Below are positions 24,306 through 55,852 of a stretch of DNA of 64,000 nucleotides, one piece after another. Made by a program: the position numbers and the translations under genes. Within the stretch, counting starts at the first letter, position 1, and every line of letters starts with the position of its first letter. The notes below the pieces were generated by a model. It worked only from the letters and a program-made list of their open reading frames with translations, did not search any database and had not been told where the DNA came from. The stretch lies in NCBI GenBank assembly GCA_014871385.1, contig CM026433.1, forward strand, positions 6,955,585 through 7,019,584. The letters are read 5' to 3'. This DNA comes from Ceratodon purpureus (Eukaryota; Streptophyta; Bryopsida; Pseudoditrichales; Ditrichaceae).

Positions 24306-24500
24306 GCTTTTACTAGAGATTCAGAACCTGCTGCTTCGAAGCTATTGGAAGGGAATCGCTCAAAGAGAGCCGCACTCTGATCATCACGAAAGTGTGAGCA
24401 AAATTCAAATTCCTTGGCTCCAACACACAGACCCAAAAGTAATCCGCGGGATCTGGATACCAGGTTATCCCAAGCAAAGAATTGTGTGGGGATTGCAAAT

Positions 24501-25628
24501 ATGGAGAAGGAGGTGTCTTGCGTGCATTGCGAGTCCAAGAATGTGAAGTTCAAGTACCTGAACAATGGGAAGAGTGACCAACATAGGTACCTATGCTTGG
24601 ATTGCGAGGTGGTGTTCACTTGGGAGAATCATGATAGGCCAAAACCCAAGCACTACAAGAAGGTTCGCAACCAAGACCCGGTTGAGATCCAAGGTCAGCG
24701 GACGCAATGCAACAAGTGTTTTGCCGTGAATAACGCACAATTCAAGTTCTACAACAACAAGAGGCAGTATGGCGAGACCCAACCCCGGTTCAAATGTTTG
24801 AGCTGTGGAGATTTCTTCCAGATGCACTTGGAGGGAGGAGTTTTGGTGGCCATCGAGACGAGCAGGAAGAGGTCACGCAATCTGAATGCAAATGAAGTCG
24901 CCAATATGCCAGGCACATTGGTTAAGGCTGCCGAGGGTGAAGGTGCAGATGGATACTACATGGGTGCAAATGCAGATTTCATCGAGGCTGGTGGCATAGT
25001 TGAGAATACCGAGATTGATGCGGTTGGAAATAATACCGAGGACGTTGATGATGGTGATATAGATTATCTTGTTTCCGTTGTTGAATCTATTGTGGCGGCT
25101 GGTGGTTGTACGTGCGAGGATTGTGTTGCTGCATATATCAAAGCAGCCAGTGGTGTCGACAACTGGGCAACAGTTGATGAGGCTTGTACAACTGGGCCTT
25201 CTGCAAACCAGATTCCAGTTGAGCACACGAACTACGGTCTCTTGGACCTGATCACCATGCCGGAGGGTGATGACCTGATCCTTGTGCCCAATGAGTGGGA
25301 TGAGCTGAATTCCTTGGACCTCACCATGCCGGAGGGTGATGACCTCCTTGTGCCCAACGAGTGGGACGAACTGAATTCCTTGGACCTCACCATGGCGGAG
25401 GGTGATGACCTCCCTGTGCCCAATGAGTGCCCGGATGAACTGAATTCCTTGCTTGAGCCTGTCAATGACTCAGTGGACCAAGATTGCGATCCGGAAACGT
25501 TAAACATAGATTCCTATGTCGAGGAGTTGGAGAATATCCTGGGAGACGACTCGGATGATGTCGATGACGGTTGCACAGACATGCCAAATCCATGGGCACT
25601 CTGGGATTCTGAAGTGGTGCTACAATAA
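24501..25628 (+). CDS. Double Dof-like zinc-finger acidic protein, copy 1
   Basis: Intronless frame of 375 residues. The ATG at 24501 is chosen because the 29 in-frame codons upstream contain no ATG. Finger 1 is C7-X2-C10-X21-C32-X2-C35 with KFKYLNN and QHRYLC; this is exactly Dof spacing. Finger 2 is C70-X2-C73-X25-C99-X2-C102 with QFKFYNN, TQPRFKC, then GGVLV and a basic KRSRN, paralleling the Dof pattern FCYYNN...QPR..C..C...GG.LRNVPVGG. The rest is strongly acidic, with a CTCEDC cluster. Three tandem 22-23-residue repeats (PEGDDL...VPNEWDELNSL) start at about residue 253. The last repeat here reads MAEGDD and NECPDELNS, unlike copies 2-4. A DNA-binding regulator with an acidic activation-type tail is likely by inference. 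Known Dof proteins carry a single finger. Confidence 0.8.
   Translation: MEKEVSCVHCESKNVKFKYLNNGKSDQHRYLCLDCEVVFTWENHDRPKPKHYKKVRNQDPVEIQGQRTQCNKCFAVNNAQFKFYNNKRQYGETQPRFKCLSCGDFFQMHLEGGVLVAIETSRKRSRNLNANEVANMPGTLVKAAEGEGADGYYMGANADFIEAGGIVENTEIDAVGNNTEDVDDGDIDYLVSVVESIVAAGGCTCEDCVAAYIKAASGVDNWATVDEACTTGPSANQIPVEHTNYGLLDLITMPEGDDLILVPNEWDELNSLDLTMPEGDDLLVPNEWDELNSLDLTMAEGDDLPVPNECPDELNSLLEPVNDSVDQDCDPETLNIDSYVEELENILGDDSDDVDDGCTDMPNPWALWDSEVVLQ
25257..25460 (+). repeat. 66-69-bp coding minisatellite in the double-Dof gene
   Basis: Three direct repeats each begin with atgccggagggtgatgacct (third copy here atggcgg...). They encode PEGDDL(I)LVPNEWDELNSLDLT-type acidic repeats. The same three-repeat block lies in copies 2 (from about 32990), 3 (about 40754) and 4 (about 48545). 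Confidence 0.9.
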
Positions 25629-27169
25629 TTTTGTCACCCACTGCCACTGGAAAGCTACAAACAGTACTCACTGGAGAGTGAGTGAGTCTGGAGGGAAACC
25701 ATGATCATATGGCGCCTAAGTTGATGTCAAGATTGCAAAACATTGATGACAAATTCAATCTTGAGTACGGTGGACTCCTGAAGCAAAAACAATGAACAGT
25801 TACCCAAGCTTGGAAGGTTGACAAACTAGTCTGTCTAACAATTTATTTTCAGATTCATCTGTATGCACTAAGTCTATAAATCCAATGACAGCACTTGCTT
25901 TGTAGTGCATTCAGGTTTCCTTCCTGCAGACAGCTCTTGAATTGTACTAGAACTTTCAAGCGAATGTACTAGACAAAAGCTTCCAGGAATTGTAGTAACT
26001 GTGAATAATCCAAGTGGGCTTACAAGTGGCAAGAACCCAAACAGTTTAGATGGTCATGATCATATAGAAGTTTTAGACTTGGTTCGAGATCATAATTCTT
26101 GAAAATGTTATAGTCCTTCTCAAATTATATAGTAGCCCATGTAAATCACAAAACATCATCATGGTCACTTTGTCACTGTAGAGCTGATCTGAACAACAAA
26201 TTATGGCTGAATCCATGTAACTTCAAAGTTTCTAGTTTGAAATGAAATTGGAGACCGTCCAGCTCTCTTTTTCATCTTTGGTGGTTGGTTACTATTACCA
26301 TTTACAATTTAGAGCTAGACTTGTAAGTTGTACAACTTGTGACCACCCAATCACGGTAATTGGGTGAATTTTGATTTCGTTCTAATTCATGAAGAATTAG
26401 ATTTCCAACTTGATTTTGATAAGTAGATATCTTGGAATTCTTACAAATGTAATGATGAATGTAAAAAGTGTTTATAAATCAAAATTACAGACCTTGATTT
26501 CCTTTGTGCTATTTTTTACTTATGGAAGATGACTGTTTGTAGATTTTTTTGAAGTTTAGGATTGAGGTTTTGATTTTATTAAATTCAATTAAACTAGTAT
26601 ATTCGTTCAACTATTTGAAACCCTCCTTGGAGAAGTAGGGAATTCGATAAGCCCCCTCTAAGTGAATATATACTCACTGGTGAATAGGTTTTAAGAAAAA
26701 AACAATGTTCTTTCAAACCATTATTCTCTGACATGGGCCACCTTGGAAAAACATTGGTACACATGTGTTACGGACATATAATCTACATCACCTTGTCGAA
26801 GGTTAAAACTTTTGTTGGATCTTCTAGAACTTATCTAAGATCTAAGTATAGATTGGATTTGCATTGACCTTTGTGAGCTCTTAAAGTATATTCGTATAAT
26901 ATCTTTAGTGACTCTTAGAACTTTGTAAGGCTAGGTTGATTGTCAACTATCCTTATCACTTCCGCAAGCCAACTAAAGCCTATCTTGTAGATTAATTATA
27001 TTATTTTTTAATAGGAACCATAGTAGTATATAATGAAGGCAAGGTGAGGGGACCTCAATCTTGCCAACACAAGTCTTGGAGCATTCTAGCTACATGTATC
27101 TTGTACTTCAATTGTTATAAAGCTTTAGCATTCGTTTTGAACTTTTGAGATTTGTTTATCCATTATGTG

Positions 27170-27430
27170 TATCACTCTTTGGCTAGTGCAGCACATTGTA
27201 GTGCGACAAGTATTACATAGTTTCTGTCCATCAAGGCTTAATACCTGGTACGGCACATCATAGTGCAGTATGTATTGCACAATTTTTGCAGCCTATCAAG
27301 CTCTGTACTTCGTGCGGTAGATTAGTAGTGCGGTAGGTATTGCATAGTCTTTGTCCATTAGGCTCTACATTCCGTGCGGCACATTAGTAGTGTACTGTGT
27401 GGCAGGTATTGCACACTATCTATGTGTTGG
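27170..27430. repeat. ~65-bp diverged satellite, four monomers (unit 1)
   Basis: Monomers contain variants of cgtgcggcacattagtagtg, then ggtattgcatagt and tgtccattaggctct, starting near 27180, 27247, 27312 and 27374. The same block recurs in unit 2 (about 34910-35140), unit 3 (about 42680-42930) and unit 4 (about 50470-50720). Confidence 0.75.
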
Positions 27431-28539
27431 AAGGTTTTTGTGTCTGTGACAACCTGCTTTTTGAACAAGTAACCAAAATAATTGCTTTTGAGGTTGTCAA
27501 AACAAAAGGTAGTTACCTTGAAAAAAAAATATACAGTTTTAGTACGGATCAAAGTTATCTTGCCCATTTTTATTAGAATGTGGAGAAAACCTTTCTCTTT
27601 ACTACATAGTAGAGGTTTTGTTAGTTTTTCATTTCTACTTCAATGGTATACTCAAAGTTCCATTGTTTTTACTACACTTAAAGTAAAACATACAAATCCT
27701 AATAGCTTAGTGGTATAGTTACAGATCTAGTGTTGATTTGAATTTAACTAGTATCCTTAAAACTTTATAGATTGAGATATCATATTGTTTTATTACCCAT
27801 GTTTGGTTGTTCAACTTGATTAATAGTACTTGGGCATTTAAATATATTATTAAACATTTGCTAATATAAATTGATTTTACATGAATGATTATTTAACATC
27901 GTTTTATACAAACATTTGATTGTTTTTACTAATTTACCAATTTAATAATTCTAGATCTATATTCCTCGAATTAAAACACTTGCCAACTTCTTAGATTGAA
28001 GTGAGATTTTTCTAACTTGCATAAACTTGAATTGCAAATCAATCCATTGAATTATTGAATAGAACTTCGAATGGAGAAAAATGATTGTTTGAAGGTTGAG
28101 TTGTTCATAGTGTCAAAAGCAATATTAAAACCTATTATGGGTTTAGAACAAAATTATGAGGAAGTAGATTAAGTTTAAGCATAAGTTGTTTATGACTTTG
28201 ATCTTTTGAATAAACATAGAGTAGCCTTCTAAAATATACGGCAAGATTATTAGTTTGAAAGAGTGGTTCATTTCATATTATACATTCATGACATGGAATT
28301 TTGACAATATAACATGGTGGATATGAACTTGTATCAATCTAATTTTTTTGAAAATCTCATGAAATTATAACATTTGTTCTTTTGTTCTATTGTTAAATTA
28401 AAGTGAGCATAGGAATTACTTGAATTGAAAAGATGTAATGTAACACCAACCTCAATGCAATAATTTCTTAAATCATTACTTATCAAGGATGTAAATGGAA
28501 GTTGTTGAACTCACTACATGTGACATAGCAACAAACTCA

Positions 28540-29640
28540 ATACTTCCACTACTAAAATCTACTTTTGCAGAGTTGTCAATTTAGCAAGATGTGACACAAG
28601 ATGGTTGGAGCACTGGATTTTTAGTTTTATAGGGCTGTAAAACTAGCAACGTGAAACATGACAACATTTCCAATGTTTTGATTGCATCAATTTACATTTT
28701 GATTTTGACAAGACTATAAACCTATCACCATGAAACATGGCAATATGTTCGACTCTATTATTGAATCAACTTTACAACAAAAATTTGATAAGGTCGTGAA
28801 TATGACAATATAAAACATGTAAAGACTCTAGTTGTCTTAACTTTGCATTGTAATTTTGATAAGATCATTGTAAATTGACAAGATGAAAAGTTGGCAATAT
28901 ATTAGGCTCTTCACTTGAGTCGGCTCTGCAAAGAAAAATTGCCTCCATTGTAATTAATAGGATGAAATTGAGGGTATAGTCAATACTTTGATTGAGTGAG
29001 CTTTGGAGAGGAATAACGTGAGTTGGTCATAAATTTGACAAGATAAAATACAACAAAATATTCAACACGTTTACTCTGTCAACTTTGCACGGAGAAAAAC
29101 TAACATGGTTGTAAATATGACAAGATGAAATGCACCAACACGTTTACCACTTTTGTGGAGTCAGATTTGCACGCCGAAGATTTGATATGGCCATAAATCT
29201 GACAAAATGAAACACGGCAACATGTTACAACTTTATTGAGTCAGTTTTGCAGACAAAAGAATTGACTTGGCCGTTTAATCTTACACCATGAAACATGGTC
29301 ACATGTTCAATACGTCTATGGAGTCGGCTTTGTAGAGAAAAGACTGGCCTAGTCGTAAATATGACAAAAGGCGTACGTAGTCGTAAATTTGACAATTGAC
29401 TTAGCCAAAAATATGACAGATAACAAAATGTTCAACCCTTTTATTAAGCCAACTTTGCAAAAATGCAATGTGACGTTGTCGTACATTTAATAAGGTGAAG
29501 CATATTTGATACTTTAATTGCATTAGTTTTGCATTGTAATTTTGACACAACTCTAAATATGACATGATGAAAAATGGCAATGTGTTTGATACTATAATAT
29601 AGTGAGCTTTTATATGTAATTTTGAGAAGATGAAACTTAC
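28540..29640. repeat. ~81-bp diverged satellite, about 13 monomers (unit 1)
   Basis: The phrase gtaaatatgacaagatgaaa with variants recurs at about 29032, 29113, 29194, 29274 and 29355, and less clearly upstream. It is followed by ...caacatgttcaa...ttgagtcagctttgcaga. The equivalent blocks are at about 36230-37310 (unit 2), 44070-45170 (unit 3) and 51860-52960 (unit 4). Confidence 0.8.
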
Positions 29641-31128
29641 CAACATGTTAAAGATTAAGCTTTGGAGCATGTAATTATACTTATTGATTATGAATAGAAA
29701 GTCGGAAGAATGACCCCATATATAGTTATACTGCACAAAGTTAGCTCTAAAGTTTTCAGACATAAATGTTTTGCTATACTTCTCAACCATCTTTACGAAT
29801 TTTTATGCAACTAACTAATATATTTGTCTTTGAAATCGTCAAAAACCAAAATCCTTTCATAATGAAACTTTTTCATTCTAAAAATTATCAAGGGGTTTAG
29901 TGTATTCTCTTTTTGGACATTCTTTTTATAAAGTAACAAACTTTTGACAATTTTTATTGTGAATTTTTTCTACTAAATTTTTTTTTCCTTTGGAAAAATC
30001 TCAAAGTTAAGAATTATGCTAATTACTTGTATAATAAGTCTAAGAGGTAGAGAAAGGATGCAACAAATGTTTTGGAGTTGCCGAAAGATAGGAAAAATCA
30101 CATTGGGCACTATAATGTTTTTTTAATGTTTAGCAAAAACAAATAAATTTGTTTTTACAACACTTTTGCAATTCTCTCCGTCTAATTTTGTTTTCAAAAA
30201 TCACATTCAAAATAGACGCTGTATATAATTTTACGGTCAATATGATTCTTTTAATGATTTGATAATTGAGGTTCCAAGATATGTATGTACAATCCAAGTC
30301 TAGTGCTCCAGCAATTGGCAACCAGTGGAAACATATTCACCACTTTTAAGACTTGTATTGAGAATATAAAAAATCTACAATATATTCCAATGTATTATGC
30401 AATAATTTTGAACTTTGTTTTTAGACTGATCATTGTTAAACTCAAAAATCAAAATAATGCCACCTTAATTTAAAATGCAACAAAAAAGTTATATCATTTT
30501 GAAAAATAGAAATAAAGCATTTATTTATATCATTCACATTTTTTTGGTAATCATATCAATGTCAAATGATGAATTTTTACTCAAAAACATACTAATTTTC
30601 TAAATCATTCAACCAATGATAGATATATAACTTAGAATTTAGAGATTTGTATGCTCACAACAAGCTTAATTTTTTTTCCCGAGGCAAATATGTCAATGGA
30701 TTCAAAACAACTAAAAATATAATAAAATATAATCTTCAAGTATAGGGATATATAAACATTTACGAAGTTCAGGTAGCCACACAGTGAAAAACATGCATAC
30801 CGGTATATAGAAGAATTTATACTTCGATCTACAGGTCCTATGTATAAGAATTTAAAAAAAGTACAAGCTATATGATTAACCAACAAAAGGAAAATAAAAG
30901 AAAATTATTGAGCATCACCCAAGGTGTAAAATGGCTTTTGAAAATTCGTTTGATTTTTGGATGGAAAAATGACATGGAAACACTGTTTACAGTTGCAAGA
31001 AAATACCCGGACAGATCATTTGTAATGCACATCAAAGCTCTATCATAGAACTTGACATTTACACATCTTTAACTTGATTGAAATTACACTTTCTGTAGTA
31101 CAACAGCAGGTTCGTTAATATACTCTAG

Positions 31129-31140
31129 TACTGTACAGTA
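31129..31140. repeat. 12-bp perfect palindrome at the unit junction
   Basis: tactgtacagta is its own reverse complement and ends one base before the shared unit sequence tcatagttcgg. It also lies at the unit 4 and unit 5 starts (about 46656 and 54447). It is lost in the deletion at the unit 3 start and is absent left of unit 1. Confidence 0.85.
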
Positions 31141-31199
31141 TCATAGTTCGGCTCGGCCTCTGCTGTGCTAAGTTGGAACAGGTTGGTTTTCTTATGCAA

Positions 31200-31508
31200 C
31201 TCAGGAAAGGTTGCAACTAAAAGATTAAATACCGGAGATGAAGCAATAGATCGAGTCTGCCAAGAGTGAACTCTCCCTTTGTCAAGGAGTTAGACTTTCA
31301 GATTTGAGTAGGTTGAACCTTCTTCCATGTAGTATAGATTCTTACTGATTCTCAGGGTAGAGCCCAATTCAGAGTCCTGTACTGTCTGATGACTGTGGCA
31401 GCAATCATGTATGATACCGAAAATCCAATCACGAAGGTGAGGAAATTTAACACAGCCTGAGTCACGCATTGTCTCGTCTCTCCGAGAATTACTTCTTTTG
31501 AGGAACAC
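31200..31508 (-). pseudogene. Possible minus-strand coding remnant in each unit leader
   Basis: In units 2, 4 and 5 a 72-codon ATG frame on the minus strand (here 31508-31290) ends with ...YMEEGSTYSNLKV. Beyond its stop the same frame continues as LLDKGRVHSW...ASSPVFNLLVATFPELHKK. In unit 1 the three-base insertion that makes the stop is missing, so the tail is open (23576-23322), but a two-base indel closes it further upstream. Unit 3 carries the block too. The text looks more protein-like than chance, yet I recognise no family. It may be the remains of a gene or a fortuitous frame. Confidence 0.3.
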
Positions 31509-31984
31509 ATTACACGTTAAGTGAATGCTTACTTCGGGACATTTATTTCGTTTGTAGAGCTATGGGTTGAGAGACTCAGTGGTTACAGAATCTGCATACT
31601 GGTGCCAATGTGCAGAAGACTCTCTGCCTACATTTTGTATGCACATCAACTGATCAGGTAAGGAGATGAGAACAGCGCCACCATGGTGACGTGAAACCTG
31701 AAATAGGCTAACCATAATGGCTGTAATAGTGATGGCTTGTGCTTCACGTCACTGAATTAATATCCCATAGTTTTCGCATTACACTAGCTTCAGTGTAGAC
31801 TACAAAAAGGGCCTCGCCCATTCTGGATTCCACCATTCTATTCCTCTGCAGTCTCCACAGAACTCTGTGCGCTTGTGCCTTGAAGGAGATTGTAAGAGTT
31901 CCAGAATTGGTTGGTTTCAAATACGAAGTGGGACAACGAGAAGTTCTTTTGACTGCTTGTGTGAAGGGAGCTTACTAGAGTTTC

Positions 31985-32095
31985 ACAACCTGCTGCTTCG
32001 AAGCTATTGGAAGGGATCAGAACCTGCTGCTGCTTCGAAGCTATTGGAAGGGATCAGAACCTGCTGCTTCGAAGCTATTGGAAGGGAATCGCTCA
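31985..32095 (+). repeat. 34-bp leader repeat, three copies (unit 2)
   Basis: aacctgctgcttcgaagcta followed by ttggaagggatcag is repeated three times; the middle copy has one extra ctg. Unit 1 has one copy (about 24323), units 3, 4 and 5 have four each (about 39720-39850, 47511-47641, 55301-55431). It ends about 140 bp before the gene ATG. Each monomer holds the palindrome ttcgaa. Confidence 0.9.
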
Positions 32096-32233
32096 AAGAG
32101 AGCCGCACTCTGATCATCACGAAAGTGTGAGCAAAATTCAAATTCCTTGGCTCCAACACACAGACCCAAAAGTAATCCGCGGGATCTGGATACCAGGTTA
32201 TCCCAAGCAAAGAATTGTGTGGGGATTGCAAAT

Positions 32234-33358
32234 ATGGAGAAGGAGGTGTCTTGCGTGCATTGCGAGTCCAAGAATGTGAAGTTCAAGTACCTGAACAATG
32301 GGAAGAGTGACCAACATAGGTACCTATGCTTGGATTGCGAGGTGGTGTTCACTTGGGAGAATCATGATAGGCCAAAACCCAAGCACTACAAGAAGGTTCG
32401 CAACCAAGACCCGGTTGAGATCCAAGGTCAGCGGACGCAATGCAACAAGTGTTTTGCCGTGAATAACGCACAATTCAAGTTCTACAACAACAAGAGGCAG
32501 TATGGCGAGACCCAACCCCGGTTCAAATGTTTGAGCTGTGGAGATTTCTTCCAGATGCACTTGGAGGGAGGAGTTTTGGTGGCCATCGAGACGAGCAGGA
32601 AGAGGTCACGCAATCTGAATGCAAATGAAGTCGCCAATATGCCAGGCACATTGGTTAAGGCTGCCGAGGGTGAAGGTGCAGATGGATACTACATGGGTGC
32701 AAATGCAGATTTCATCGAGGCTGGTGGCATAGTTGAGAATACCGAGATTGATGCGGTTGGAAATAATACCGAGGACGTTGATGATGGTGATATAGATTAT
32801 CTTGTTTCCGTTGTTGAATCTATTGTGGCGGCTGGTGGTTGTACGTGCGAGGATTGTGTTGCTGCATATATCAAAGCAGCCAGTGGTGTCGACAACTGGG
32901 CAACAGTTGATGAGGCTTGTACAACTGGGCCTTCTGCAAACCAGATTCCAGTTGAGCACACGAACTACGGTCTCTTGGACCTGATCACCATGCCGGAGGG
33001 TGATGACCTGATCCTTGTGCCCAATGAGTGGGATGAGCTGAATTCCTTGGACCTCACCATGCCGGAGGGTGATGACCTCCTTGTGCCCAACGAGTGGGAC
33101 GAACTGAATTCCTTGGACCTCACCATGCCGGAGGGTGATGACCTCCCTGTGCCCAATGAGGGGGATGAACTGAAGTCCTTGCTTGAGCCTGTCAATGACT
33201 CAGTGGACCAAGATTGCGATCCGGAAACGTTAAACATAGATTCCTATGTCGAGGAGTTGGAGAATATCCTGGGAGACGACTCGGATGATGTCGATGACGG
33301 TTGCACAGACATGCCAAATCCATGGGCACTCTGGGATTCTGAAGTGGTGCTACAATAA
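32234..33358 (+). CDS. Double Dof-like zinc-finger acidic protein, copy 2
   Basis: 374 residues, intronless, same architecture as copy 1: two Dof-like fingers at 7-35 and 70-102, basic KRSRN, CTCEDC cluster, and three acidic repeats. The third acidic repeat reads PVPNEGDELKSLLEPV, as in copies 3 and 4 and unlike copy 1. Upstream, the codon before RDLDTRL is CGC-type (SNP in the non-ATG extension) as in copy 1, so this copy shares left-end variants with copy 1 and right-end variants with copies 3-4. That points to exchange between units. The frame is fully open. Confidence 0.8.
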   Translation: MEKEVSCVHCESKNVKFKYLNNGKSDQHRYLCLDCEVVFTWENHDRPKPKHYKKVRNQDPVEIQGQRTQCNKCFAVNNAQFKFYNNKRQYGETQPRFKCLSCGDFFQMHLEGGVLVAIETSRKRSRNLNANEVANMPGTLVKAAEGEGADGYYMGANADFIEAGGIVENTEIDAVGNNTEDVDDGDIDYLVSVVESIVAAGGCTCEDCVAAYIKAASGVDNWATVDEACTTGPSANQIPVEHTNYGLLDLITMPEGDDLILVPNEWDELNSLDLTMPEGDDLLVPNEWDELNSLDLTMPEGDDLPVPNEGDELKSLLEPVNDSVDQDCDPETLNIDSYVEELENILGDDSDDVDDGCTDMPNPWALWDSEVVLQ

Positions 33359-36300
33359 TTTTGTCACCCACTGCCACTGGAAAGCTACAAACAGTACTCA
33401 CTGGAGAGTGAGTGAGTCTGGAGGGAAACCATGATCATATGGCGCCTAAGTTGATGTCAAGATTGCAAAACATTGATGACAAATTCAATCTTGAGTACGG
33501 TGGACTCCTGAAGCAAAAACAATGAACAGTTACCCTTGGAAGGTTGACAAACTAGTCTGTCTAACAATTTATTTTCAGATTCATCTGTATGCACTAAGTC
33601 TATAAATCCAATGACAGCACTTGCTTTGTAGTGCATTCAGGTTTCCTTCCTGCAGACAGCTCTTGAATTGTACTAGAACTTTCAAGCGAATGTACTAGAC
33701 AAAAGCTTCCAGGAATTGTAGTAACTGTGAATAATCCAAGTGGGCTTACAAGTGGCAAGAACCCAAACAGTTTAGATGGTCATGATCATATAGAAGTTTT
33801 AGACTTGGTTCGAGATCATAATTCTTGAAAATGTTATAGTCCTTCTCAAATTATATAGTAGCCCATGTAAATCACAAAACATCATCATGGTCACTTTGTC
33901 ACTGTAGAGCTGATCTGAACAACAAATTATGGCTGAATCCATGTAACTTCAAAGTTTCTAGTTTGAAATGAAATTGGAGACCGTCCAGCTCTCTTTTTCA
34001 TCTTTGGTGGTTGGTTACTATTACCATTTACAATTTAGAGCTAGACTTGTAAGTTGTGACCACCCAATCAATGCAATCATGATAATTGGGTGAATTTTGA
34101 TTTAGTTCTAATTCATGAAGAATTAGATTTCCAACTCGATTCTGATAACTAGGAGATATGTTGGAATTCTTAGAAATGTAATGATGAATGTAAAAAGTGT
34201 TTATAAATAAAAATTATATACTTTTATTTACTAGATGTGCTATTTTTTACTTATGGAAGATGATTGTTTGTAGATTTTTTTGAAGTTTAGGATTGAGGTT
34301 TTGATTTTTTTAAATTCAATTAAACTAGTAGATTCGTTCAATTATTTGGAACCCTGCTTGTAGATGTAGGCAATTTGATGAGCCCACTCTAAGTGAATAT
34401 ATACTCACTGGTAACTGGGTTCTAAGGGAAAAAAACAATGTTCTTTCAAACCATTATTCTCTGACATGGGCCACCTTGGAAAAACATTGCTACACTTGTG
34501 TCACGGACATATAATCTACATCACCTTGTCGAAGGTTAAAACTTTTGTTGGATCTTCTAGAACTTATCAAAGATCTTATAGATTGGATTTGCATTGACCT
34601 TTGTGAGCTCTTAAAGTATATTCGTATAATATCTTTAGTGACTTTTAAAACTTCATAAGGCTAGGTTGATTGTCAACTATCCTTATCACTTTTCTAGCCA
34701 ACTAAAGCCTATCTTGTAGATTAATTATATTATTTTTTAATTGGAACCATAGTAGTAATGATAATGAAGGCAAGGTGAGGGGACCTCAATCTTGCCAACA
34801 CAAGTCTTGGAGCATTCTAGCTACGTGTATCTTGTACTTCAATTGTTATAAAGCTTTAGCATTCGTTTTGAACTTGTGAGATTTGTTCATCCATTTTGTG
34901 TATCACTCTTTGGCTAGTGCGGCAGGTCATACATAGTTTCTGTCTATTAAGGCTTAATACCTCATACGGCACATCATAGTGCAGTAGGTATTGCATAGTT
35001 TCTGCCTATCAGGCTCTGTACTTCGTGCGGTAGATCAATAGTGCGGCAAGTATTGCATAGCCTTTGTCCATTAGGCTCTACACTCTGTGCGGCACATAAT
35101 GCACATTAGTAGTGTGGTAAGTATCGCATAGTATCTATTTGTTGGAAGGTTTTTGTGTCTCTGACAACCTGCTTTTTGAACAAGTAATCAAAATAATTGC
35201 TTTTGAGGTTGTCAAAACAAAAGCTAGTTACTTGCAAAAAAAAAACTACTTTAGTAGGGGTCAAAGTTATCTCGCCCATTTTTATTAGAATGCGGAGAAA
35301 ACCTTTCTCTTTACTACATAGTAGAGGTATTGTTAGTTTTTCATTTCTACTTCAATGGTATACTCAAAGTTCCATTGTTTTTACTACACCTAAAGTAAAA
35401 CACACAAATCCTAATAGCTTAGTGGTATAGTAGATCTAGTGTTGATTTGAATTTAACTCGTATCTTTAAAACTTCATATATTATTAAACATTTGCTAATA
35501 TTAATCAATTTTACATGAATGATTATTTAACATCGTTTTATACAAACATTTGATTGTTTTTACTAATTTACCAATTTAATAATTCTAGATCTATATTCCT
35601 CGAATTAAAACACTTGCCGACTTCTTAGATTGAAGTGAGATTTTTATAACTTCTACATAAACTTGAATTGCAAATCAATCCATTGAATTATTGAATAGAA
35701 CTTCGAATGGAGAAAAATGATTGTTTGAAGGTTGACTTGTTCATAGTGTCAAACGTAACATTAAAACCTATTATGGGTTTAGAACAAAATTATGTGGAAG
35801 TAGATTTAGTTTAAGCATAAGTTGTTTCTGACTTTGATCTTTTGAATAAACATAGAGTAGCCTTCTAAAATATACGGCAAGATTATTAGTTTGAAAGAGT
35901 GGTTCATTTCATATTATACATTCATGACATGGAATTTTGACAATATAACATGGTGGATATGAAAATGTATCAATCTAATTTTTTTGAAAATCTCATGAAA
36001 TTATAACATTTGTTCTTTTGTTCTATTGTTAAACTAAAGTGAGCATAGGAATTACTTGAATTGAAAAGATGTAATGTAAGACCAACCTCAATGCAATAAT
36101 TTCTTAAATCATTACTTATCAAGGATGTAAATGGAAGTTGTTGAACTCACTACATGTGACATAGCAACAAACTCAATACTTCAACCACTAAATTCTACTT
36201 TTGCAGAGTTGTCAATTTAGCAAGATGTGACACAAGATGGTTGGAGCACTGGATTTTTAGTTTTATAGGGCTGTAAAACCAGCAACGTGAAACATGACAA

Positions 36301-38929
36301 CATTTCCAATGTTTTGATTGCATCAATTTACATTTTGATTTTGACAAGACTATAAACCTATCACCATGAAACATGGCAATATGTTCGACTCTATTATTGA
36401 ATCAACTTTACAACAAAAATTTGATAAGGTCGTGAATATGACAATATAAAACATGTAAAGACTCTAGTTGTCTTAACTTTGCATTGTAATTTTGATAAGA
36501 TCATTGTAAATTGACAAGATGAAAAGTTGGCAATATGTTAGGCTCTTCACTTGAGTCGGCTCTGCAAAGAAAAATTGCCTCCATTGTAATTAATAGGATG
36601 AAATTGAGGGTATATTCAATACTTTGATTGAGTGAGCTTTGGAGAGGAAAAACGTGAGTTGGTCATAAATTTGACAAGATAAAATACAACAAAATATTCA
36701 TCACGTTTACTGTGTCAACTTTGCACGGAGAAAAACTAACATGGTTGTAAATATGACAAGATGAAATGCACCAACATGTTTACCACTTTTGTGGAGTCAG
36801 ATTTGCACGCCGAAGATTTGATATGGCCATAAATCTGACAAAATGAAACACGGCAACATGCTACAACTTTATTGAGTCAGTTTTGCAGACCAAAGAATTG
36901 ACTTGGCCGTAAATCTGACACCATGAAACATGGTCAGATGTTCAATACTTCTATGGAGTCGGCTTTGTAGAGAAAAGACTCGCCTAGTCGTAAATATGAC
37001 AAAATACCCTAGTCATAAATATGACAAAAGGCAAACGTAGTCGTAAATCTTACAATTGACCTAGCCAAAAATGTGATACAATGAAACACAACCTGTTCAA
37101 CCTTTTTATTGAGCCAACTTTGCAAAAATACAATGTGACGTTGTCGTACATTTAATAAGGTGAAGCATATTTGATACTTTAATTGCATTAGTTTTGCATT
37201 GTAATTTTGACACAACTCTAAATATGACATGATGAAAAATGGCAATGTGTTTGATACTATAATATAGTGAGCTTTTATATGTAATTTTGAGAAGATGAAA
37301 CTTACCAACATGTTAAAGATTAAGCTTTGGAGCATGTAATTATACTTATTGATTATGAATAGAAAGTTGGAAGAATGACCCCATATATAGTTATACTGCA
37401 AAAAGTTAGCTATAAAGTACTTTTCAGACATAAATGTTTTGCTATACTTCTCAACCATCTTTACAAATTTTTATGCAACTAACTAATATATTTGTCTTTG
37501 AAATCGTCAAAAAACAAAATCCTTTCATAAATTATAATGAAACTTTTTCATTCTAAAAATTATCAAGGGGTTTGCTGTATTCTCTTTTTGGACATTGTTT
37601 TTATAAAGTAACCAACTTTTGACAATTTTTATTGTGAATTTTTTCTACTATAAATTCTTTCCTTTGGGACAATCTCAAAGTTAAGAATTATGCTAATTAC
37701 TTGAATAATCACTCTTAGAAGTAAAAAAAAGGGTGCAACAAATGGTTTGGAGTTGCCAAAAGATAGGAAAAATCACATTGGACACCATAATGTTTTTTCA
37801 ATGTTTAGCAAAAACAAATAAATTTGTTTCTACAACACTTTTGCAATTTTGTAGGTCTAATTTTTTTCAAAAATCACATTCAAAATTGACTTTGTATATA
37901 ATCTTACGATTGATATGATTCTTTAAATCATTTGATAGTTGAGGTTCCAAGATACATATTAAAATTAGTAAAATTACATTCTTGGTAATAATAAGGTATT
38001 TTTAAGTCATGTAATTCTATTTTCAGAATTATGTGGTAAAATGACTAAATTCATTTTTTCTTAATGAAATCTTACTTTTTCAAAATGAAACAAAATATTC
38101 ATACAACCCAAGTCGAGTGCTCCAGCAATTGGCAACCACTGGAAACAAATCCACCACTTTTAAGACTTGTATTGAGAATATAAAAAATCTACAATATATT
38201 CCAATATATTATGCAATAATTTTGAACTTTGTTTTTAGACTGATCATTGTTAAACTCAAAAATCAAAATAATGCCACCTTAATTTAAAATGCAACAAAAA
38301 AGTTATATCATTTTGAAACATACCGATAAAGCATTTATTTATATCATAAACACTTTTTTGGTAATCATATCAATGTCAAATAATGAATTTTTACTCAAAA
38401 ACATACTAGTGTTCTAGATTATTCAACCAATGATAGATATATAATTTAGAATTTAGAGTTTATATGCTCACAACAAGCTTAATTTCTTTTCCCGAGGCAA
38501 ATAAGTCAATGGATTCAAAACAACCAAAAATATAATAAAATATAATCTTCAAATATAGGGATATATAAACATTTAAGAAGTTCAGGTAGCCACACAGTGA
38601 AACACATGCATATATAGAAGAATTTATACTTCGATCTACAGGTCCTATGTATAAGAATTTAAAAAAAGTACAAGCTATATGATTGACCAACAAAAGGAAA
38701 ATAAAAGAAAATTATTGAGCATCACCCAAGGTGTAAAATGGCTTTTGAAAATTCGTTTGATTTTTGGATGGAAAAATGATTTGGAAACACTGTTTACAGT
38801 TGCAAGAAAATACCCGGACAGATCATTTGTAATGCACATCAAAGCTCTATCATAGAACTTGACATTTACACGACTTTAACTTGATTGAAATTACACTTTC
38901 TGTAGTACCACAGCAGGTTCCTTAATATT
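33359..38929. other. Unit 2 spacer, diverged form
   Basis: Same order of elements as the unit 1 spacer, but with many differences. It has lost the aagttgtacaactt inverted repeat at about 34050, lacks about 90 bp near 35470, and has an insertion of about 140 bp near 37960-38100. No credible gene is seen. Confidence 0.65.
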
Positions 38930-39997
38930 ATGCAATTCAGGAAGGGTTGCAACTAAAAGATTAAAGACCGGAGATGAAGCAATAGATCGAGTCTGCCAAG
39001 AGTGAACTCTCCCTTTGTCAAGGAGTTAGACTTTCAGATTTGAGTAGGTTGAACCTTCTTCCATGTAGTATAGATTCTTACTGATTCTCAGGGTAGAGCC
39101 CAATTCAGAGTCCTGTACTGTCTGATGACTGTGGCAGCAATCATGTATGATACCGAAAATCCAATCACGAAGGTGAGGAAATTTAACACAGCCTGAGTCA
39201 CGCATTGTCTCGTCTCTCCGAGAATTACTTCAATTGAGGAACACATTACACGTTAAGTGAATGCTTACTTCGGGACATTTATTTCGTTTGTAGAGCTATG
39301 GGTTGAGAGACTCAGTGGTTACAGAATCTGCATACTGGTGCCAATGTGCAGAAGACTCTCTGCCTACATTTTGTATGCACATCAACTGATCAGGTAAGGA
39401 GATGAGAACAGCGCCACCATGGTGACGTGAAACCTGAAATAGGCTAACCATAATGGCTGTAATAGTGATGGCTTGTGCTTCACGTCACTGAAATATCCCA
39501 TAGTTTTCGCATTACACTAGCTTCAGTGTAGACTACAAAAAGGGCCTCGCCCATTCTGGATTCCACCATTCTATTCCTCTGCAGTCTCCACAGAACTCTG
39601 TGCGCTTGTGCCTTGAAGGAGGTTGTAAGAGTTCCAGGATTGGTTGGTTTCAAATACGAAGTGGGACAACGAGAAGTTCTTTTGACTGCTTGTGTGAAGG
39701 GAGCTTACTAGAGTTTCACAACCTGCTGCTTCGAAGCTATTGGAAGGAATCAGAACCTGCTGCTTCGAAGCTATTGGAAGGAATCAGAACCTGCTGCTTC
39801 GAAGCTATTGGAAGGGATCAGAACCTGCTGCTTCGAAGCTATTGGAAGGGAATCGCTCAAACAGAGCCGCACTCTGATCATCACGAAAGTGTGAGCAAAA
39901 TTCAAATTCCTTGGCTCCAACACACAGACCCAAAAGTAATCAGCGGGATCTGGATACCAGGTTATCCCAAGCAAAGAATTGTGTGGGGATTGCAAAT
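38930..39997. other. Unit 3 leader with a deletion at its start
   Basis: The junction reads ttccttaatattatgcaattcagg. Compared with the other unit junctions, about 50-70 bp are missing, including the palindrome tactgtacagta and the catagttcggctcgg mark. The rest of the leader, including four 34-bp repeats, is present. Confidence 0.75.
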
Positions 39998-41122
39998 ATG
40001 GAGAAGGAGGTGTCTTGCGTGCATTGCGAGTCCAAGAATGTGAAGTTCAAGTACCTGAACAATGGGAAGAGTGACCAACATAGGTACCTATGCTTGGATT
40101 GCGAGGTGGTGTTCACTTGGGAGAATCATGATAGGCCAAAACCCAAGCACTACAAGAAGGTTCGCAACCAAGACCCGGTTGAGATCCAAGGTCAGCGGAC
40201 GCAATGCAACAAGTGTTTTGCCGTGAATAACGCACAATTCAAGTTCTACAACAACAAGAGGCAGTATGGCGAGACCCAGCCCCGGTTCAAATGTTTGAGC
40301 TGTGGAGATTTCTTCCAGATGCACTTGGAGGGAGGAGTTTTGGTGGCCATCGAGACGAGCAGGAAGAGGTCACGCAATCTGAATGCAAATGAAGTCGCCA
40401 ATATGCCAGGCACATTGGTTAAGGCTGCCGAGGGTGAAGGTGCAGATGGATACTACATGGGTGCAAATGCAGATTTCATCGAGGCTGGTGGCATAGTTGA
40501 GAATACCGAGATTGATGCGGTTGGAAATAATACCGAGGACGTTGATGATGGTGATATAGACTATCTTGTTTCCGCTGTTGAATCTATTGTGGCGGCTGGT
40601 GGTTGTACGTGCGAGGATTGTGTTGCTGCATATATCAAAGCAGCCAGTGGTGTCGACAACTGGGCAACAGTTGATGAGGCTTGTACAACTGGGCCTTCTG
40701 CAAACCAGATTCCAGTTGAGCACACGAACTACGGTCTCTTGGACCTGATCACCATGCCGGAGGGTGATGACCTGATCCTTGTGCCCAATGAGTGGGATGA
40801 GCTGAATTCCTTGGACCTCACCATGCCGGAGGGTGATGACCTCCTTGTGCCCAACGAGTGGGACGAACTGAATTCCTTGGACCTCACCATGCCGGAGGGT
40901 GATGACCTCCCTGTGCCCAATGAGGGGGATGAACTGAAGTCCTTGCTTGAGCCTGTCAATGACTCAGTGGACCAAGATTGCGATCCGGAAACGTTAAACA
41001 TAGATTCCTATGTCGAGGAGTTGGAGAATATCCTGGGAGACGACTCGGATGATGTCGATGACGGTTGCACAGACATGCCAAATCCATGGGCACTCTGGGA
41101 TTCTGAAGTGGTGCTACAATAA
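39998..41122 (+). CDS. Double Dof-like zinc-finger acidic protein, copy 3
   Basis: 374 residues, intronless and open. Differs from copy 4 by one visible residue, SAVES instead of SVVES, in the acidic middle part. All eight finger cysteines, the basic segment and the three acidic repeats are intact. The 34-bp leader repeat occurs four times upstream. The start choice is as for copy 1. Confidence 0.8.
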   Translation: MEKEVSCVHCESKNVKFKYLNNGKSDQHRYLCLDCEVVFTWENHDRPKPKHYKKVRNQDPVEIQGQRTQCNKCFAVNNAQFKFYNNKRQYGETQPRFKCLSCGDFFQMHLEGGVLVAIETSRKRSRNLNANEVANMPGTLVKAAEGEGADGYYMGANADFIEAGGIVENTEIDAVGNNTEDVDDGDIDYLVSAVESIVAAGGCTCEDCVAAYIKAASGVDNWATVDEACTTGPSANQIPVEHTNYGLLDLITMPEGDDLILVPNEWDELNSLDLTMPEGDDLLVPNEWDELNSLDLTMPEGDDLPVPNEGDELKSLLEPVNDSVDQDCDPETLNIDSYVEELENILGDDSDDVDDGCTDMPNPWALWDSEVVLQ

Positions 41123-44100
41123 TTTTGTCACCCACTGCCACTGGAAATTAGCTACAAACAGTACTCACTGGAGAGTGAGTGAGTCTGGAGGGAAACCATG
41201 ATCATATGGCACCTTTGATCTCAAGATTGCAAAACATTGATGACAAATTCAATCTTGAGTACGGTGGACTCCTGAAGCAAAAACAATGAACAGTTACTCA
41301 AGCTTGGAAGGTTGACAAACTAGTCTGTCTAACAATTTATTTTCAGATTCATCTGTATGCACTAAGTCTATAAATCCAATGACAGCACTTGCTTTGTAGT
41401 GCATTCAGGTTTCCTTCCTGCAGACAGCTCTTGAATTGTACTAGAACTTTCAAGCGAATGTACTAGACAAAAGCTTCCAGGAATTGTAGTAACTGTGAAT
41501 AATCCAAGTGGGCTTACAAGTGGCAAGAACCCAAACAGTTTAGATGGTCATGATCATATAGAAGTTTTAGACTTGGTTCGAGATCATAATTCTTGAAAAT
41601 GTTATAGTCCTTCTCAAATTATATAGTAGCCCATGTAAATCACAAAACATCATCATGGTCACTTTGTCACTGTAGAGCTGATCTGAACAACAAATTATGG
41701 CTGAATCCATGTAACTTCAAAGTTTCTAGTTTGAAATGAAATTGGAGACCGTCCAGCTCTCTTTTTCATCTTTGGTGGTTGGTTACTATTACCATTTACA
41801 ATTTAGAGCTAGACTTGTAAGTTGTACAACTTGTGACCACCCAATCACGGTAATTGGGTGAATTTTGATTTCGTTCTAATTCATGAAGAATTAGATTTCC
41901 AACTTGATTTTGATAAGTAGATATCTTGGAATTCTTACAAATGTAATGATGAATGTAAAAAGTGTTTATAAATCAAAATTATATACTTTGATTTCCTTTG
42001 TGCTATTTTTTACTTATGGAAGATGATTGTTTGTAGATTTTTTTGAAGTTTAGGATTGAGGTTTTGATTTTATTAAATTCAATTAAACTAGTATATTCGT
42101 TCAACTATTTGAAACCCTCCTTGGAGAAGTAGGGAATTCGATAAGCCCCCTCTAAGTGAATATTTACTCAGTGACTCACTGGTGAATAGGTTTCAAGAAA
42201 AAAACAATGTTCTTTCAAACCATTATTCTCTGACATGGGCCACCTTGGAAAAACATTGGTACACATGTGTTACGGACATATAATCTACATCACCTTGTCG
42301 AAGGTTAAAACTTTTGTTGGATCTTCTAGAACTTATCTAAGATCTAAGTATAGATTGGATTTGCATTGACCTTTGTGAGCTCTTAAAGTATATTCGTATA
42401 ATATCTTTAGTGACTCTTAGAACTTTGTAAGGCTAGGTTGATTGTCAACTATCCTTATCACTTCCGCAAGCCAACTAAAGCCTATCTTGTAGATTAATTA
42501 TATTATTTTTTAATAGGAACCATAGTAGTATATAATGAAGGCAAGGTGAGGGGACCTCAATCTTGCCAACACAAGTCTTGGAGCATTCTAGCTACATGTA
42601 TCTTGTACTTCAATTGTTATAAAGCTTTAGCATTCGTTTTGAACTTTTGAGATTTGTTTATCCATTATGTGTATCACTCTTTGGCTAGTGCAGCACATTG
42701 TAGTGCGACAAGTATTACATAGTTTCTGTCCATCAAGGCTTAATACCTGGTACGGCACATCATAGTGCAGTATGTATTGCACAATTTCTGCAGCCTATCA
42801 GGCTCTGTACTTCGTGCGGTAGATTAGTAGTGCGGTAGGTATTGCATAGTCTTTGTCCATTAGGCTCTACATTCCGTGCGGCACATTAGTAGTGTACTGT
42901 GTGGCAGGTATTGCACACTATCTATGTGTTGGAAGGTTTTTGTGTCTATGACAACCTGCTTTTTGAACAAGTAACCAAAATAATTGCTTTTGAGGTTGTC
43001 AAAACAAAAGGTAGTTACCTTGAAAAAAAAATATACAGTTTTAGTACGGATCAAAGTTATCTTGCCCATTTTTATTAGAATGTGGAGAAAACCTTTCTCT
43101 TTACTACATAGTAGAGGTTTTGTTAGTTTTTCATTTCTACTTCAATGGTATACTCAAAGTTCCATTGTTTTTACTACACTTAAAGTAAAACATACAAATC
43201 CTAATAGCTTAGTGGTATAGTTACAGATCTAGTGTTGATTTGGATTTAACTAGTATCCTTAAAACTTTATAGATTGAGATATCGTATTGTTTTATTACCC
43301 ATGTTTGGTTGTTCAACTTGATTAATAGTACTTGGGCATTTAAATATATTATTAAACATTTGCTAATATAAATCGATTTTACATGAATGATTATTTAACA
43401 TCGTTTTATACAAACATTTGATTGTTTTTACTAATTTACCAATTTAATAATTCTAGATCTATATTCCTCGAATTAAAACACTTGCCAACTTCTTAGATTG
43501 AAGTGAGATTTTTCTAACTTGCATAAACTTGAATTGCAAATCAATCCATTGAATTATTGAATAGAACTTCGAATGGAGAAAAATGATTGTTTGAAGGTTG
43601 ACTTGTTCATAGTGTCAAAAGCAATATTAAAACCTATTATGGGTTTAGAACAAAATTATGAGGAAGTAGATTAAGTTTAAGCATAAGTTGTTTATGACTT
43701 TGATCTTTTGAATAAACATAGAGTAGCCTTCTAAAATATACGGCAAGATTATTAGTTTGAAAGAGTGGTTCATTTCATATTATACATTCATGACATGGAA
43801 TTTTGACAATATAACATGGTGGATATGAACTTGTATCAATCTAATTTTTTTGAAAATCTCATGAAATTATAACATTTGTTCTTTTGTTCTATTGTTAAAT
43901 TAAAGTGAGCATAGGAATTACTTGAATTGAAAAGATGTAATGTAACACCAACCTCAATGCAATAATTTCTTAAATCATTACTTATCAAGGATGTAAATGG
44001 AAGTTGTTGAACTCACTACATGTGACATAGCAACAAACTCAATACTTCCACTACTAAAATCTACTTTTGCAGAGTTGTCAATTTAGCAAGATGTGACACA

Positions 44101-46668
44101 AGATGGTTGGAGCACTGGATTTTTAGTTTTATAGGGCTGTAAAACTAGCAACGTGAAACATGACAACATTTCCAATGTTTTGATTGCATCAATTTACATT
44201 TTGATTTTGACAAGACTATAAACCTATCACCATGAAACATGGCAATATGTTCGACTCTATTATTGAATCAACTTTACAACAAAAATTTGATAAGGTCGTG
44301 AATATGACAATATAAAACATGTAAAGACTCTAGTTGTCTTAACTTTGCATTGTAATTTTGATAAGATCATTGTAAATTGACAAGATGAAAAGTTGGCAAT
44401 ATATTAGGCTCTTCACTTGAGTCGGCTCTGCAAAGAAAAATTGCCTCCATTGTAATTAATAGGATGAAATTGAGGGTATAGTCAATACTTTGATTGAGTG
44501 AGCTTTGGAGAGGAATAACGTGAGTTGGTCATAAATTTGACAAGATAAAATACAACAAAATATTCAACATGTTTACTCTGTCAACTTTGCACGGAGAAAA
44601 ACTAACATGGTTGTAAATATGACAAGATGAAATGCACCAACACGTTTACCACTTTTGTGGAGTCAGATTTGCACGCCGAAGATTTGATATGGCCATAAAT
44701 CTGACAAAATGAAACACGGCAACATGTTACAACTTTATTGAGTCAGTTTTGCAGACAAAAGAATTGACTTGGCCGTTTAATCTTACACCATGAAACATGG
44801 TCACATGTTCAATACGTCTATGGAGTCGGCTTTGTAGAGAAAAGACTGGCCTAGTCGTAAATATGACAAAATACCCTAGTCGTAAATATGACAAAAGGCG
44901 TACGTAGTCGTAAATTTGACAATTGGCTTAGCCAAAAATCTGACAGATAACAAAATGTTCAACCCTTTTATTAAGCCAACTTTGCAAAAATACAATGTGA
45001 CGTTGTCGTACATTTAATAAGGTGAAGCATATTTGATACTTTAATTGCATTAGTTTTGCATTGTAATTTTGACACAACTCTAAATATGACATGATGAAAA
45101 ATGGCAATGTGTTTGATACTATAATATAGTGAGCTTTTATATGTAATTTTGAGAAGATGAAACTTACCAACATGTTAAAGATTAAGCTTTGGAGCATGTA
45201 ATTATACTTATTGATTATGAATAGAAAGTCGGAAGAATGACCCCATATATAGTTATACTGCACAAAGTTAGCTCTAAAGTTTTCAGACATAAATGTTTTG
45301 CTATACTTCTCAACCATCTTTACGAATTTTTATGCAACTAACTAATATATTTGTCTTTGAAATCGTCAAAAACCAAAATCCTTTCATAATGAAACTTTTT
45401 CATTCTAAAAATTATCAAGGGGTTTAGTGTATTCTCTTTTTGGACATTCTTTTTATAAAGTAACAAACTTTTGACAATTTTTATTGTGAATTTTTTCTAC
45501 TAAATTTTTTTTTCCTTTGGAAAAATCTCAAAGTTAAGAATTATGCTAATTACTTGTATAATAAGTCTAAGAGGTAGAGAAAGGATGCAACAAATGTTTT
45601 GGAGTTGCCGAAAGATAGGAAAAATCACATTGGGCACTATAATGTTTTTTTAATGTTTAGCAAAAACAAATAAATTTGTTTTTACAACACTTTTGCAATT
45701 CTCTCCGTCTAATTTTGTTTTCAAAAATCACATTCAAAATAGACGATGTATATAATTTTACGGTCAATATGATTCTTTTAATGATTTGATAATTGAGGTT
45801 CCAAGATATGTATGTACAATCCAAGTCTAGTGCTCCAGCAATTGGCAACCAGTGGAAACATATTCACCACTTTTAAGACTTGTATTGAGAATATAAAAAA
45901 TCTACAATATATTCCAATGTATTATGCAATAATTTTGAACTTTGTTTTTAGACTGATCATTGTTAAACTCAAAAATCAAAATAATGCCACCTTAATTTAA
46001 AATGCAACAAAAAAGTTATATCATTTTGAAAAATAGAAATAAAGCATTTATTTATATCATTCACATTTTTTTGGTAATCATATCAATGTCAAATGATGAA
46101 TTTTTACTCAAAAACATACTAATTTTCTAAATCATTCAACCAATGATAGATATATAACTTAGAATTTAGAGATTTGTATGCTCACAACAAGCTTAATTTT
46201 TTTTCCCGAGGCAAATATGTCAATGGATTCAAAACAACTAAAAATATAATAAAATATAATCTTCAAGTATAGGGATATATAAACATTTACGAAGTTCAGG
46301 TAGCCACACAGTGAAAAACATGCATACCGGTATATAGAAGAATTTATACTTCGATCTACAGGTCCTATGCATAAGAATTTAAAAAAAGTACAAGCTATAT
46401 GATTAACCAACAAAAGGAAAATAAAAGAAAATTATTGAGCATCACCCAAGGTGTAAAATGGCTTTTGAAAATTCGTTTGATTTTTGGATGGAAAAATGAC
46501 ATGGAAACACTGTTTACAGTTGCAAGAAAATACCCGGACAGATCATTTGTAATGCACATCAAAGCTCTATCATAGAACTTGACATTTACACATCTTTAAC
46601 TTGATTGAAATTACACTTTCTGTAGTACAACAGCAGGTTCGTTAATATACTCTAGTACTGTACAGTAT
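41123..46668. other. Unit 3 spacer
   Basis: Very close to the spacers of units 1 and 4 for most of its length. Near 41978 it reads attatatactttgattt, sharing atatact with unit 2, whereas units 1 and 4 read attacagacctt. It is thus a mosaic. Contains the ~65-bp and ~81-bp satellites; no credible gene. Confidence 0.65.
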
Positions 46669-47788
46669 CATAGTTCGGCTCGGCCTCTGCTGTGCTAAGT
46701 TGGAACAGGTTGGTTTTCTTATGCAACTCAGGAAAGGTTGCAACTAAAAGATTAAATACCGGAGATGAAGCAATAGATCGAGTCTGCCAAGAGTGAACTC
46801 TCCCTTTGTCAAGGAGTTAGACTTTCAGATTTGAGTAGGTTGAACCTTCTTCCATGTAGTATAGATTCTTACTGATTCTCAGGGTAGAGCCCAATTCAGA
46901 GTCCTGTACTGTCTGATGACTGTGGCAGCAATCATGTATGATACCGAAAATCCAATCACGAAGGTGAGGAAATTTAACACAGCCTGAGTCACGCATTGTC
47001 TCGTCTCTCCGAGAATTACTTCTTTTGAGGAACACATTACACGTTAAGTGAATGCTTACTTCGGGACATTTATTTCGTTTGTAGAGCTATGGGTTGAGAG
47101 ACTCAGTGGTTACAGAATCTGCATACTGGTGCCAATGTGCAGAAGACTCTCTGCCTACATTTTGTATGCACATCAACTGATCAGGTAAGGAGATGAGAAC
47201 AGCGCCACCATGGTGACGTGAAACCTGAAATAGGCTAACCATAATGGCTGTAATAGTGATGGCTTGTGCTTCACGTCACTGAAATATCCCATAGTTTTCG
47301 CATTACACTAGCTTCAGTGTAGACTACAAAAAGGGCCTCGCCCATTCTGGATTCCACCATTCTATTCCTCTGCAGTCTCCACAGAACTCTGTGCGCTTGT
47401 GCCTTGAAGGAGATTGTAAGAGTTCCAGAATTGGTTGGTTTCAAATACGAAGTGGGACAACGAGAAGTTCTTTTGACTGCTTGTGTGAAGGGAGCTTACT
47501 AGAGTTTCACAACCTGCTGCTTCGAAGCTATTGGAAGGAATCAGAACCTGCTGCTTCGAAGCTATTGGAAGGAATCAGAACCTGCTGCTTCGAAGCTATT
47601 GGAAGGGATCAGAACCTGCTGCTTCGAAGCTATTGGAAGGGAATCGCTCAAACAGAGCCGCACTCTGATCATCACGAAAGTGTGAGCAAAATTCAAATTC
47701 CTTGGCTCCAACACACAGACCCAAAAGTAATCAGCGGGATCTGGATACCAGGTTATCCCAAGCAAAGAATTGTGTGGGGATTGCAAAT
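46669..47788. other. Unit 4 leader
   Basis: Begins with the catagttcggctcggcc mark right after the tactgtacagta palindrome, and ends with four 34-bp repeats and about 140 bp before the ATG. This is the presumed promoter and leader of copy 4. No clear TATA box could be fixed. Confidence 0.55.
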
Positions 47789-55579: not shown

Positions 55580-55852
55580 ATGGAGAAGGAGGTGTCTTGC
55601 GTGCATTGCGAGTCCAAGAATGTGAAGTTCAAGTACCTGAACAATGGGAAGAGTGACCAACAGAGGTACCTATGCTTGGATTGCGAGGTGGTGTTCACTT
55701 GGGAGAATCATGATAGGCCAAAACCCAAGCACTACAAGAAGGTTCGCAACCAAGACCCGGTTGAGATCCAAGGTCAGCGGACGCAATGCAACAAGTGTTT
55801 TGCCGTGAATAACGCACAATTCAAGTTCTACAACAAACGCCATATTCATTAA
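55580..55852 (+). pseudogene. Double Dof-like gene, copy 5, truncated in finger 2
   Basis: The unit matches copy 4 until about 55836, then changes abruptly to unrelated AT-rich sequence. The frame adds five foreign residues after FKFYN and stops at 55852, giving 90 residues. Finger 1 is complete (one change, QQRYLC for QHRYLC). Finger 2 keeps only its first CX2C pair, and the whole acidic part is lost. The promoter and leader are intact, so it could still make a one-finger peptide. Most likely a dead end of the array. Confidence 0.85.

Follow-up and report, generated by a model that had tools for sequence, protein, structure and literature searches.

Dof proteins are named for a single finger and are regarded as an AAAG-binding family. 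The 64,000-nucleotide stretch of the Ceratodon purpureus genome that we analysed (hereafter the window; contig C13, assembly size 362.5 Mb) contains an open reading frame at 24501-25628 on the + strand, which the initial annotation had read as a plant protein with two tandem Dof-like zinc fingers and an acidic repeat tail. Such a protein raises the questions of whether both fingers are related to Dof, and whether the protein would bind a spaced pair of AAAG sites or derive from a domesticated transposon, as the annotation had suggested, or serve another function.

Two Dof-like fingers in one reading frame

The frame is open from 24381, its first ATG is at 24501 and its stop codon ends at 25628; the first Met of paralogs on contig C2, such as L037 and L050, matches this start position. 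The features are as follows.

24501..25628, + strand: copy 1 coding sequence, 375 aa, with two Dof-like fingers, a basic linker and an acidic tail
24519..24623, + strand: finger 1, residues 7-41, CX2C-X21-CX2C (PF02701, 39.8 bits for residues 1-64 alone)
24624..24707, + strand: linker, residues 42-69, containing RPKPKHYKKVRNQDPVEIQGQRTQ, strongly conserved in the closer relatives
24708..24830, + strand: finger 2, residues 70-110, CX2C-X25-CX2C (PF02701, 31.4 bits for residues 65-130 alone)
24831..24878, + strand: EGGVLVAIETSRKRSR segment 3' of finger 2, similar to the end of the Dof domain; the PF02701 match extends into it
24879..25625, + strand: acidic tail, 249 residues, net charge -60
25252..25451, + strand: in-frame 66-bp repeats in the tail, 2.9 copies

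The cysteines are arranged as C7-X2-C10-X21-C32-X2-C35 in finger 1, which is exactly the Dof spacing, and as C70-X2-C73-X25-C99-X2-C102 in finger 2, where X25 takes the place of X21. The whole protein matches the Dof profile (PF02701; cut-off, 26.6 bits) over two stretches with 55.7 bits (E = 5.5e-15), and each half passes the cut-off alone: residues 1-64 with E = 5e-10 (profile positions 2-39 of 59) and residues 65-130 with E = 2.1e-7 (positions 3-52 of 59). In a Pfam scan of the window protein no family besides Dof exceeded its own cut-off; the unrelated ribbon InsA reached 10.3 bits (cut-off, 26.1 bits). A PDB search with a profile of seven double-finger proteins returned the Dof protein CDF1 (8xuf) as the best match (E = 1.6e-5; next, 0.14), as did a search with the window sequence alone (E = 0.0096; next, 0.026). 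The AlphaFold2 model built from the window sequence alone is poor (pLDDT 51), so the fold is unconfirmed. Both fingers are Dof homologues; the spacings and motifs quoted in the annotation are all present in the frame, the acidic repeat tail is borne out by its charge and its 66-bp repeats, and the plant origin of the protein is supported.

The window protein nevertheless departs from Dof factors in three respects. All four intact gene copies in the window (see below) have two fingers, not one. The C-terminal half of the Dof domain, GGxLRNVPVGGG, lies outside the match of finger 1, which ends at profile position 39, and is reduced in finger 2 to a degenerate GG.L, with the match running to position 52. 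The residues that grip DNA are replaced: in CDF2, changing either Y171 or W172 to alanine (Y171A, W172A) abolished binding to DNA, and the same study names K166 and R170 as additional residues involved (PMC9477738). In the order K166, R170, Y171, W172, the equivalent residues are L, V, V and F for finger 1, and for finger 2 they are L, D, F and F. The motif [KR]..RYW follows the third Cys in 10/10 ordinary sequences (nine distinct ones from the genome, and CDF1), whereas RYW occurs in none of 70 distinct divergent fingers; the 66 of these that are in CxxC register have K/R in two cases, R in three, Y in four and W in none at the four grip places. The window protein is homologous to Dof but no classical Dof factor, since tests showed that it breaks the one-finger rule and that it lacks both the DNA-grip residues and the full C-terminal half.

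A family of divergent genes and its arrays

A genome search with PF02701 gave at least 116 matches, comprising 10 ordinary Dof genes, which score 113-120 bits, and weaker matches, many of which are paired about 190 bp apart; with the 130-aa double finger as query, at least 87 matches were obtained. The divergent matches of both searches combined fall into at least 82 gene-sized loci in at least 53 clusters. Contig C2, 7.3% of the assembly, holds 46 of these loci in 26 clusters, where its length would predict 3.9 clusters; among the matches listed, contig C6 (110.5 Mb, 30% of the total) has no such locus. AP2 domains, counted by eye as a control, number 3/87 on C2 and 8/87 on C6 among the matches listed.

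In the DNA retrieved around these loci we counted, from stop to stop, 49 frames that encode at least two Dof-like fingers; 41 of them are distinct, 24 are on C2 and one has three fingers. Some frames are short (L036, 119 aa; L071, 104 aa; L040, 157 aa), and that of L062 has no Met ahead of its first finger. A loose pattern finds the Cys4 set in every finger of 43 of the 49 frames; the other six fail it, one by spacing alone. Ten further divergent frames have one finger above the score limit, which brings the frame census to 59 divergent frames against at least 82 loci, the remainder being fragments or lying outside the retrieved DNA. Double-finger genes are thus more numerous than ordinary Dof genes (49 frames versus 10 among the matches listed), and Dof is the best Pfam match in all 10 divergent relatives chosen for scanning.

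Two other loci of the family have unusual architectures. On C2, seven near-identical, almost tailless two-finger ORFs (frames of 176-190 aa) lie head to tail at 1353-bp spacing (5969933-5978407). On C10 (about 12338670-12339420), the three-finger gene L011 has a 658-aa frame scoring 127 bits in total against PF02701, with a basic EP-type stretch ahead of each finger.

The window ORF is itself copy 1 of a tandem array of four intact genes (375, 374, 374 and 374 aa) and one cut copy, in units of about 7.8 kb, with gene starts at 24501, 32234, 39998, 47789 and 55580.

24321..55399, + strand: four tandem units, start-to-start 7733, 7764, 7791 and 7791 bp
32234..33358, + strand: copy 2, 374 aa
39998..41122, + strand: copy 3, 374 aa
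47789..48913, + strand: copy 4, 374 aa
55580..55852, + strand: copy 5, about 257 bases of gene sequence, cut within finger 2, with unrelated DNA after

Each unit carries one + strand gene, and its non-gene portion is largely AT-rich; a Pfam scan of one non-gene ORF of an array unit gave no match. Units 3 and 4 differ at 12/7791 aligned sites, units 1 and 3 at 31/7724 and units 1 and 2 at 234/7522. The differences between units 1 and 2 are unevenly distributed: the first 2000 alignment columns, which include the gene, are 99.4-100% identical, and the other twelve bins are 92.4-99.3% identical. Gene conversion over the gene would account for this pattern.

Copy 5 breaks off within finger 2, and the DNA that follows (window positions 55837-64000 and beyond) is unrelated. 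A further 3' half copy lies beyond the window end, adjoining an N run, and begins at nearly the codon at which copy 5 breaks; the pair could stem from a large insertion, from a rearrangement or from a join made during assembly. A 3633-aa frame beyond the window end was considered as a giant protein and rejected, as it is mostly N run in the stretch retrieved.

Other features neighbour the array in the window. Adjoining it on the + strand (20811-22423) is a matrixin (peptidase M10) ORF, with an ORF upstream that has a peptidoglycan-binding-type domain. On the - strand, ORFs at 58605-59846 have a weak match to TET/JBP dioxygenase (24.1 bits, below the cut-off of 34.9) and a zf-met finger (23.0 bits; cut-off, 21.2); TET/JBP genes are transposon-linked in some fungi. 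Also on the - strand, at 62326-62775, a 148-aa ORF has a ubiquitin domain at residues 66-137 and an N-terminal part with no Pfam match.

Age of the second finger, selection and sequence exchange

The history of the two fingers was examined in trees based on 45 columns. The main tree comprises 21 finger-1, 21 finger-2 and 10 ordinary Dof sequences (nine from the genome, and CDF1), and omits 12 fingers, all fingers of L011, L013, L066 and L067, and the single-finger genes. In this tree, finger 2 of the 21 genes forms one group (support 98/98) and the ordinary Dofs form another (100/100); the finger-1 sequences do not come together in the best tree, although a single finger-1 group is not rejected (p-AU 0.205). 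In a wider tree, which omits 6 fingers, three remote genes on long branches (L013, L066 and L067) violate the split between finger 1 and finger 2. Since finger 2 groups across genes, the two fingers were already distinct before the genes multiplied.

Selection acts differently on the two parts of the protein. Of 28 pairs, which share genes, 18 have a finger-module dS of 0.1-1.8; in these 18 the module has omega of 0.04-0.37, and their tails have omega of 0.26-1.98, or are saturated or missing. Pairs with finger-module dS below 0.1 give omega of 0-0.48 where it is defined, except the single-finger pair L014-L069 (omega 2.34 at dS 0.05). Taken separately, finger 1, linker and finger 2 have omega of 0.03-0.39 wherever defined (15 pairs), and dN of the linker is the lowest of the three in 11/15 pairs. 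The fingers and the linker are under purifying selection while the tails drift. This selection, together with the grouping of finger 2 across genes, establishes that the second finger is old and retained, and no artefact.

The variability of single positions was compared with that of random sets in 14 core genes. At the four CDF2 contact positions, a set fixed beforehand, variability is unexceptional, since 2529 of 20000 random sets reach the same level. Variability is exceptional in the three residues that follow the fourth Cys (4 of 20000), a set picked post hoc in related and thus non-independent genes.

Sequence exchange between family members is suggested by the extent of homology in blastn comparisons of flanks. 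In 4/21 pairs (L042 with L044, L045 and L046; L046 with L049), homology begins at or near the ATG and stops no more than about 30 nt past the stop codon, and the flanks are unrelated. The homology of other pairs continues upstream (L044-L045), downstream (L045-L046) or both ways (L020-L023 and L041-L047). Between L046 and L048, finger dS is 0.47 and tail dS is 0.07. Conversion between copies is the likely cause of these patterns, and movement of the coding part by an element a less probable one.

Function, competing explanations and known systems

All 38 proteins examined have a basic finger module, with a net charge of +5 to +25. Among the 35 whose tail is longer than 20 residues, 28 have a tail charge of -15 to -61 (array and near-identical copies are included in both counts); the remaining seven tails, at +3 to -6, are slightly positive, neutral or weakly acidic. 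Several relatives have a related stretch of the type [DE]P.E(F/Y/L) ahead of a finger, and 4/38 proteins have a GRP core ahead of a finger, which we take to resemble an AT-hook. Judged from sequence, this is the layout of a putative DNA-binding module with a putative acidic activation tail and an apparently altered recognition surface, from which we infer the mechanism.

We weigh five accounts of the locus, and favour, with a probability of about 0.6, that the window protein belongs to a moss family of Dof-based nuclear regulators. Its two zinc ribbons and conserved basic linker would form a single DNA-binding module, and its acidic tail, with scattered aromatic residues, would be an activation domain; the module would most likely read a site that is different from and longer than AAAG, as the Dof grip residues are gone from both fingers. 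The fingers would have become distinct and the genes then multiplied, the family having expanded through tandem duplications and through exchange among its copies. For the window protein itself, we infer zinc binding, nuclear location, DNA binding and activation. The annotation's proposal, a double Dof bound to a spaced pair of AAAG sites, would fit the Dof homology of both fingers and the ordinary spacing of finger 1; the idea is improbable, however, given that CDF2-type grip residues are replaced in both window fingers and that the finger-1 match stops at profile position 39/59, and the loss of RYW from all 70 divergent fingers, against its presence in 10/10 ordinary sequences, argues against a simple AAAG pair. 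The replaced grip residues could also signal that DNA binding was lost instead of changed, in which case the module might serve as an adaptor for proteins or RNA, or compete with ordinary Dofs. That dN is lowest in the linker in 11/15 pairs, as for a protein-protein surface, points the same way, but the basic module in all 38 proteins, the acidic tail in 28/35 and the AT-hook-like GRP core in four point back to DNA, and we regard such an adaptor as the less likely case, if the most plausible of the alternatives.

An origin from a transposon, either as a transposon-derived zinc ribbon or as a coding sequence moved as a cassette, is very unlikely, although copies are spread over many contigs and four of 21 pairs share homology confined to about ATG to stop between unrelated flanks. 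Against it, Dof is the best Pfam match in 11/11 proteins scanned (the window protein and 10 chosen relatives), with no transposase family above cut-off in any of them; the scores of L014 against IS1595 (11.7 bits; cut-off, 25.4) and ISL3 (11.5 bits; cut-off, 25.5) are low, like that of the window protein against InsA. Moreover, the homology of other pairs continues into the flanks, and no relatives were found in viral and prokaryote contig collections by pattern search and tblastn. The suggested domesticated transposon thus has little in its favour. That the double finger is an artefact of assembly or gene modelling is the least credible account of all: array copies are near-identical and an N run adjoins the further partial copy past the window end, but two or more fingers share one uninterrupted frame at 49 places, the array units differ from one another (1 and 2 as well as 3 and 4), and the finger-2 sequences of different genes join one another in the tree and not the finger 1 beside them.

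Proteins with several Dof domains have a precedent in print. A study of 2024 (PMC10842470) reports 16 plant genes in which the DOF domain occurs more than once: three from Ceratodon purpureus, four from Physcomitrella, five from Aquilegia, three from Actinidia and one from Rhododendron. It describes such genes as previously unreported, could not exclude artefacts, and found that domains from one gene always clustered with each other. The annotation's statement that described Dof factors carry one finger accordingly holds for the usual Dof but not for these 16 genes. They resemble the family described here in having more than one DOF domain per protein, a likeness drawn from their description, not their sequences, and the moss genes among them may belong to the window family; they differ in that their domains cluster by gene, whereas here, across 49 frames, finger 2 clusters across genes. 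A literature search on Dof, as far as the accessible portions of the papers go, gave no further report of multi-Dof proteins; other papers with a matching multi-Dof phrase concern, in those portions, binding motifs or single domains. The family bears on the artefact question that the 2024 study raised. The presence of 49 multi-finger frames beside 10 ordinary Dofs, with grip residues replaced, alters the meaning of moss Dof counts, and the family provides natural variants in which to study how the target of a plant zinc ribbon can change.

Compared with CDF1 and CDF2 of Arabidopsis, the family shares the Cys4 ribbon, the motifs KF.Y.NN and QPR(Y/F).C..C, and the finger-1 spacing; unlike them, it has two fingers (three in one gene), X25 in finger 2, a conserved inter-finger linker and an acidic repeat tail, and it lacks RYW and the full GGxLRNVPVGGG half. 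With the InsA/IS1-type and other transposase ribbons it has the Cys4 pattern in common, but it scores far below their cut-offs. The vertebrate KRAB zinc-finger clusters are another lineage-specific tandem expansion of multi-finger proteins that is clustered on some chromosomes. It is conceivable, if rather unlikely, that mosses evolved fast-turnover multi-finger regulators of a comparable kind from Dof, through tandem amplification, concentration on one chromosome and coding-limited exchange, with a constant scaffold, variable residues beside the fourth Cys that maybe set DNA specificity, and possibly an arms race with mobile DNA. The KRAB clusters differ in their unrelated fold, in having many fingers instead of two, and in carrying a repressor domain in place of an acidic tail.
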